The translations under genes were made by a program, and so were the position numbers. Under the pieces are notes generated by a model. It was not told where the DNA came from. It made no database searches and saw nothing but the letters and a program-made list of their open reading frames with translations. Positions 33,838-46,719 of a DNA stretch of 64,000 nt are shown here, one piece after another. The stretch's first letter is position 1, and each line of letters begins with the position of its first letter. Origin of the DNA: an uncultured Lachnospiraceae bacterium (GTDB taxonomy: Bacteria > Bacillota > Clostridia > Lachnospirales > Lachnospiraceae); contig CANQBX010000005.1 in NCBI GenBank assembly GCA_947589095.1, positions 21,712 through 85,711 on the forward strand, given 5' to 3'.

Positions 33838-33950
33838 GAAACAGACAACCACCCGCTTTGCGGGTGCGCGATGATAGTTATACAAAAAATCACCTTTCCC
33901 GTTATAATAGAGGTGTCCAGCCACTATTAAGAGAAAGGAAAGGTGATTTT

Positions 33951-34406
33951 ATGGCAAATAAAGCCAATGACTTAGCTCACACGAAATGGATGTGCAAGTA
34001 TCACATTGTCTTTACTCCTAAGTATAGACGAAAAATAATTTATAATCAACTGAAAGATGATATAAGAGATATTTTGAAACAACTGTGTTCTTATAAGGGA
34101 GTGGAGATCATAGAAGGACATCTGATGGCGGATCATATCCATATGCTGGTAAGTATACCGCCAAAGATAAGTGTATCGAGTTTTATGGGGTATTTGAAAG
34201 GGAAATCGGCCCTGATGATCTTCGACCGACACGCAAATCTGAAGTATAAGTTTGGGAACCGACATTTCTGGTCGGAAGGGTACTACGTAAGCACGGTAGG
34301 ACTGAATGAGGCCACCATAAGGAAGTATATACAAGACCAGGAGAGAGAAGACATCATGAGAGACAAACTGAGTGTGAAGGAGTACGAGGACCCTTTCAAG
34401 GGTTAA
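33951..34406 (+). CDS. tnpA: IS200/IS605-family transposase TnpA (Y1_Tnp)
   Basis: HTKWMCKYHIVFTPKYRRKIIYNQ, EIIEGHLMADHIHMLVSIPPK (HUH), FGNRHFWSEGYYVSTVG. Confidence 0.95.
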   Translation: MANKANDLAHTKWMCKYHIVFTPKYRRKIIYNQLKDDIRDILKQLCSYKGVEIIEGHLMADHIHMLVSIPPKISVSSFMGYLKGKSALMIFDRHANLKYKFGNRHFWSEGYYVSTVGLNEATIRKYIQDQEREDIMRDKLSVKEYEDPFKG

Positions 34407-46335: not shown

Positions 46336-46426
46336 GAAGAACCCCTTTCGTTATTTCCACGTGAACCAGAGCCGGGATGTTTCCCAAGAATCCGACAGCC
46401 TTTCACATCTATTCCCGCGAAAACCA

Positions 46427-46677
46427 GCGCAAGGCTATGGTTCCTCTGGGACGAATTTTACGGATGGTTAGAAATTCTTAGTGAGCAGTAATTTGCGGTG
46501 CTGTGCGCCAGTGGCGCACGTTTAGCACCGACCGGAGCGAAGCGGAGAATTCCGAAAAATGGACATGTTTGAGCGAAGCGAGTTGTCCATTTTTCGGAAT
46601 GCTTTTAGCAAATTGCTGTGAGCTTAGAATTTCTTCCGTCCGGAAACCTGAGTCCCATAGGAACCATAGCCTTGCGC
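46427..46677. repeat. Long nested inverted repeat (~70 bp arms) containing two inner hairpins
   Basis: Arms 46427-46496 and 46608-46677; outer 26 bp differ at one position (GCGCAAGGCTATGGTTCCTcTGGGAC / GTCCCATAGGAACCATAGCCTTGCGC). Confidence 0.85.
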
Positions 46678-46719
46678 GTATCTTTCACGATCATATACAC
46701 CCTCCCGCATCCACAAAGA

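Follow-up and report, generated by a model that had tools for sequence, protein, structure and literature searches.

Very long DNA hairpins as a dispersed repeat family in gut Lachnospiraceae and scattered relatives, recognised from a nested palindrome beside recG

The window, i.e., the whole 64,000-nucleotide stretch analysed from the genome of an uncultured Lachnospiraceae bacterium (G000), contains a large palindrome between the stop codon of recG and a convergent spore-protein (SASP) gene, overlapping neither. According to domain matches, the recG product carries RecG domains and the SASP gene corresponds to PF00269. The nested palindrome that an earlier note had placed at 46427-46677 was confirmed at exactly that position. 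Its 70-nt arms (46427-46496 and 46608-46677) were complementary at 52 of 70 positions (74%) without gaps, and the 20-nt tip arms (46546-46565/46584-46603) were 95% complementary and contained the perfect 16-bp inner stem reported previously. The inner CGGTGCT...AGCACCG hairpin was also there, as claimed. When folded as RNA, the 251-bp palindrome reached -148.7 kcal/mol, compared with -76.7 ± 5.2 kcal/mol for 200 shuffles (z = -13.9). The features of the locus are as follows.

46336..46697, + strand: whole segment (palindrome plus short flanks); G014 and G002 have a recG-SASP spacer that lacks it
46414..46426, + strand: left foot flank CCCGCGAAAACCA, whose conserved CCA tag adjoins the hairpin base on the 5' side; the consensus is CCCGGAARAACCA and then GC in clade copies, and CA and then GC in many copies from other genera
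46427..46452, + strand: outer arm X (left), copy-specific and self-complementary with the right arm; arm mismatches were counted over 53 copies
46453..46495, + strand: left middle arm with conserved internal loops; the outer loop has its GA at 46453-46454, the inner loop at 46483-46484
46496..46548, + strand: REP-like module CGGTGCTGTGCGCCAGTGGCGCACGTTTAGCACCGACCGGAGCGAAGCGGAG, an insertion of a different dispersed repeat into an internal loop
46550..46599, + strand: tip hairpin, with a 16-bp stem (46550-46565/46584-46599) closing TGTTTGA-GCGAAGC-GAGTT
46600..46650, + strand: right middle arm GCTTTTAGCAAATTGCTGTGA...CCTGA, with the partner GA at 46620-46621 and 46650-46651; covarying stems
46651..46677, + strand: outer arm X' (right), the reverse complement of X
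46678..46690, + strand: right foot flank GTATCTTTCACGA; the consensus is GKAYC, with GTCC/GTAC in other genera

A unique, non-conserved sequence would have refuted the earlier note; instead, searches revealed dispersed homologous copies in G000 and its relatives. Searches of G000, presumably a rabbit-gut genome (4.1 Mb, 192 contigs), yielded 14 full copies and one half copy or relic. Within the genus, copies were present in 9 of the 26 genomes (species) sampled, while most others carried none and G003 matched the inner insert only. In an exact motif scan of a species-genome collection, the matches were confined to uncultured Lachnospiraceae assemblies labelled 'Lapin', presumably from rabbit gut; thus, sequence identity alone detects one clade. 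With 31 distinct cores as input, a covariance model matched 21 of 299 Lachnospiraceae genomes, sampled at approximately one genome per genus (about 20 of 298 genera), with 1-9 matches per carrier genome outside this genus, and it also found members in three other families of the same order. The exact tip motif CTGTYTGAGCGMAGCGAGTT occurred in 10 of 399 phylum-wide genomes (reversed control, 0), and most of the matches inspected lay at the tips of long hairpins. The copies were intergenic, often between convergent or co-directional genes; none of 53 overlapped a predicted gene, and only 5 were located between divergent genes. The palindrome at 46427-46677 belongs to a family of very long DNA hairpins, not described before, that has been repeatedly inserted in gut Lachnospiraceae and scattered relatives. 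Literature searches by sequence string and by keyword returned nothing on this hairpin family.

The window copy had no match in phage, plasmid, and viral-contig collections, and viral contigs shared the short tip motif only; a phage or plasmid origin was therefore rejected. In the viral contigs (L254-L262), this motif caps hairpins that in most cases precede a second one, e.g., TTCTTTTGTTTCAAGACAAAAGAA; BLAST searches with two of these tip-motif hairpins gave nothing useful. Judged from its genes, L257 presumably resembles a P2-like phage, and L262 carries large tail-like genes.

The clade copies have a common anatomy. From the outside in, a 5' foot ending in CCA is followed by GC, the outer arm X, a GA/GA internal loop, a second variable stem, a second GA/GA loop, ATTTGCGTT facing GCTTTTAGCAAAT, the tip stem, and an exchangeable tip. 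The feet are fixed, with CCA then GC at the left and GC then GTMC at the right; more precisely, the 3' GC is followed by GKAYC in this clade and by GTCC or GTAC elsewhere. The internal loops are conserved with tandem G.A mismatches, and the left GA was found in 53 of 53 copies at the outer loop and 48 of 53 at the inner loop, while the right GA at the inner loop was found in 52 of 53. The outer arms differ in sequence across copies and range from 23 to 75 bp (23-25 nt in this clade and up to approximately 75 bp, with few mismatches, in other genera such as those of G301 and G095), yet complementarity is kept. Despite the wide divergence of X between copies, X and X' mismatched at only 48 of 1219 positions (4%) over 53 copies. 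The tip TGTYTGA-[mini-hairpin]-GAGTT was present in nearly all of 51 copies listed, which were collected with the tip pattern; it is nearly invariant across genera, and its mini-hairpin varies. In copies from other genera the two outer GA/GA loops are mostly absent, but the feet, this tip, and the GCGTT/TTTTAGC loop persist. Tip loops also vary by species at a single locus, as seen at the recG site (G000 versus G012 and G018) and at the L014 site (G014 versus G000, G004, and others). The d(GCGAAGC) mini-hairpin and hairpins with GNA loops are unusually stable as DNA (PMC4686876).

One part of the window copy does not belong to this anatomy. Among the clade copies seen, the CGGTGCT...CGGAG hairpin (46496-46548) occurred only in the window copy and in L024 (G004), in the same internal loop. 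It does not belong to the long-hairpin family: the window copy carries it as an insertion of a distinct REP-like module. Elsewhere the module is free-standing, and related forms occur in other genera. A tandem array of the module, GGCGCTGTGTGCCAGTGGCACACGCTTAGCGCCGACCGGAGCGAAGCGGAG, with a period of approximately 49 bp was observed at L010 (G000:C133:5837-5980). The earlier claim that the inner motif recurs at 33.75 kb and 2.3 kb did not hold, as those hairpins share only the CCAGTGR loop and the stem type. They form a third small hairpin family, GCAAGC..CCAGTGR..GCTTGTAT (window positions 2316 and 33745), distinct from the inner insert. A further member of this third family adjoins the long-hairpin copy in L007.

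Orthologous sites were polymorphic. The recG-SASP spacer is approximately 90-110 bp without a palindrome in G014, G002, and G021, while the palindrome is present in G000, G012, and G018. Other empty sites were found for L009 in G002, for L006 in 8 relatives, and for L007 and L008 in several. Site polymorphism thus supports mobility, and no recent transposition was caught directly in the sites compared. No clean target-site duplication was seen by eye at the empty sites, where the flanks had also diverged. Only one arm was left at L133, L136, and L146 (half-deletions). In G095 (L339-L351), about a dozen sites with arm relics only were observed, which suggests high past turnover in that genome; its L339 site holds a compact solo hairpin without the core, beside two further full copies. 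Both the one-arm sites and the G095 relics fit insertion followed by slippage deletion. The MITE-like suggestion of the earlier note was well supported by the dispersed homologous copies, empty orthologous sites, and deletion relics.

Direct repeats, 3-9 to an array, adjoin or run into the left foot in 6 of the 14 G000 copies, and right-foot arrays occur in 2. In the left flanks of L002, L003, L004, L006, and L008, the arrays adjoining the foot have units of 28-39 bp, and relatives that lack the hairpin at the L006 and L008 sites lack the array there too. Together, the half-deleted relics and the foot arrays fit a DNA hairpin that stalls replication. Two ideas about the arms were considered and rejected. 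An origin from the target by inverted target duplication is not supported, as empty sites lack X and X elsewhere in the tested genomes represents other copies or relics. Similarly, arms acting as guides to other loci were dismissed, since X matched element copies only (G000, G301, G280, and G166).

Whether pairing is kept at the DNA or RNA level can be judged from the stems. Checking for covarying stems, as proposed earlier, revealed strong covariation, with 23 of 39 core pairs changing on both sides and a score of 0.385 compared with 0.178 for shuffled and <=0.108 for slid partners. Isolated stem mismatches comprised 55 G.T and 50 A.C, with no G.U preference (34 and 31 in the distant set, 21 and 19 in this clade). 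The tRNA control from the same loci gave 10 versus 0, and the contrast is clear, although the control is small (nine tRNAs) and the copies are non-independent. In the core alignment, G.U cells were somewhat commoner than A.C cells, which tells against the DNA reading. Selection on an RNA should leave G.U intermediates on one strand, and the isolated mismatches showed no such preference; thus, the pairing looks strand-symmetric, as expected for DNA-level correction, e.g., replication template switching. Perfect stems have been proposed to arise and persist through template switching (PMC8794818). Most changes within orthologous sites were single and unpaired, and double changes came in blocks. 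Gradual pairwise compensation within these sites was therefore rejected, and the blockwise double changes indicate that exchange between copies also contributes; the pattern is better explained by correction or by copies exchanging sequence than by slow compensation. Against strand-symmetric pairing, the + strand folded better in 48 of 53 copies (RNA parameters) and the GA/GA loops are strand-specific, which we read as selection for the single-stranded fold of one strand.

The better + strand fold, conserved GA/GA loops, strong covariation, and nearly invariant tip with its variable mini-hairpin would also suit a new class of structured noncoding RNA, in which the dispersed copies give rise to a long rod-shaped transcript with tandem G.A loops and a tip resembling a K-turn. 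Such an RNA appears unlikely, as isolated mismatches lacked the G.U preference of the tRNAs (10:0), no gene neighbour was constant, orientation showed no clear bias (18 versus 11), and the only promoter-like match nearby, approximately 390 bp away, was at chance level. In Rfam, no match exceeded the gathering score, with only sub-threshold miRNA-hairpin or sRNA chance matches at the elements; a known RNA was rejected for the same reason. These results weaken the structured RNA proposed in the earlier note. Its cruciform, taken as a DNA hairpin, is favoured by the absent wobble bias. The intergenic positions, often between convergent or co-directional genes, are those expected of a transcription terminator or an mRNA-end stabiliser kept by selection at gene ends. 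However, the same spots are empty in close relatives, some divergent gene pairs carry copies, and the window copy has no terminator-like U tract, which makes this function very improbable. Least plausible of all is the absence of a mobile family, with each quasi-palindrome growing at its own site through template switching. That process is able to build stems (PMC8794818) and the foot arrays show local slippage, but the homologous cores, feet, and tip common to copies across loci and genera refute local growth.

A Y1 (IS200-like) tyrosine transposase mobilising the hairpin, as for GTAG or CGTC REPs, was also considered. The foot tags and hairpin architecture are REP-like, and CGTC REPs have a CGTC tag, CCA tails, and no dedicated transposase (PMC3733652). 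Moreover, the window has an IS200 TnpA gene (IS200-type Y1 within 33858-34406; a 141-bit match to PF01797), accompanied by CCACCCG hairpins of its own. Contig C1 carries another, shorter Y1 gene (L076). However, the Y1 match was absent from the copy carriers G002, G004, G009, G012, G018, G021, G147, G148, G309, and G280, and the tip motif was not found within approximately 1.5 kb of 30 Y1 genes examined; RAYT/IS200 mobilisation is therefore disfavoured. The stems are also about ten times the REP length and the tag polarity is reversed, so that this explanation is quite improbable. Only in G574 did a Y1 gene lie near a copy, and it has the look of a common IS200/IS605 insertion; in other genera, the genes next to copies are unremarkable and unrelated. 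In a transposase search that covered Y1, neither a mobilising enzyme nor an autonomous copy was found, and none of approximately 100 copies seen bore a gene. The matching transposase that the earlier note had proposed to look for thus did not emerge, and the window IS200 TnpA is unlinked to the long-hairpin family.

The comparisons show a multicopy family: orthologous sites can be empty, the feet are fixed, the tip and internal loops are conserved, and the arms stay complementary as their sequence changes. The locus is probably a dispersed, non-autonomous long-hairpin DNA repeat that is or once was mobile; the mobilising mechanism and the enzyme are what we infer. During replication, the strand carrying GAGCGAAGCGAG would fold as single-stranded DNA or a cruciform. 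A putative trans-acting enzyme would recognise the feet and tip and copy the hairpin to new intergenic sites, while template switching within the strand would be the main force keeping the arms complementary. The foot tandem arrays and the half-deleted relics would result from stalling at the base of the hairpin. More speculatively, the family might represent a new class of mobile element living as a single-stranded DNA hairpin, with its G.A loops, TGTYTGA/GAGTT tip, and CCA/GTMC feet read by an undiscovered host- or phage-encoded enzyme; it would then span several Bacillota families and, from the tip-motif matches, phage contigs.

Among known systems, REP sequences have stems of 5-13 bp with a GTAG or CGTC tag at one end; GTAG and CGTC REPs are likewise dispersed intergenic hairpins with tagged feet, mostly downstream of genes, and the CGTC type adds the likeness of CCA tails and no dedicated transposase (PMC3733652). 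In contrast, the present stem is approximately 100 bp, with conserved internal loops and tip and variable arms, the tags are reversed (CCA 5', GTC 3'), and there is no Y1 link. Neither the tagged 5-13 bp stem nor the linked RAYT/Y1 that defines REPs was thus found in the long-hairpin family. With MITEs (ERIC/RU and Correia-type), the copies share being short, non-coding, multicopy, palindromic, and polymorphic at orthologous sites, and the multicopy non-coding nature with orthologous-site polymorphism that characterises MITEs was observed. At the empty sites, whose flanks have diverged, no target-site duplication was visible by eye, and the search for Y1 transposases gave no cognate enzyme; the ends are inverted but variable, as the outer arms differ between lineages. 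Integron attC sites, too, are imperfect DNA hairpins that are strand-specific, keep certain features unpaired, and vary in the length of stem and tip. This likeness is a functional analogy only; no copy was seen in a cassette array. IS200/IS605 and derived palindrome-associated elements share the single-strand hairpin logic, but no tnpA or tnpB link was present here and the IS200 hairpins of the window (CCACCCG) are unrelated. The copies constitute a new long-hairpin dispersed repeat family with MITE- or REP-like behaviour, which by the features compared does not belong to REPs and whose MITE identity falls short of proof. As the family is absent from Rfam and its tip from the literature searched, it would add a large new type of bacterial dispersed palindrome. 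It would also offer a natural experiment on how normally unstable 100-bp palindromes persist, spread, and keep their arms matched, with the conserved tip and feet as direct handles for finding a new DNA-hairpin-processing enzyme.
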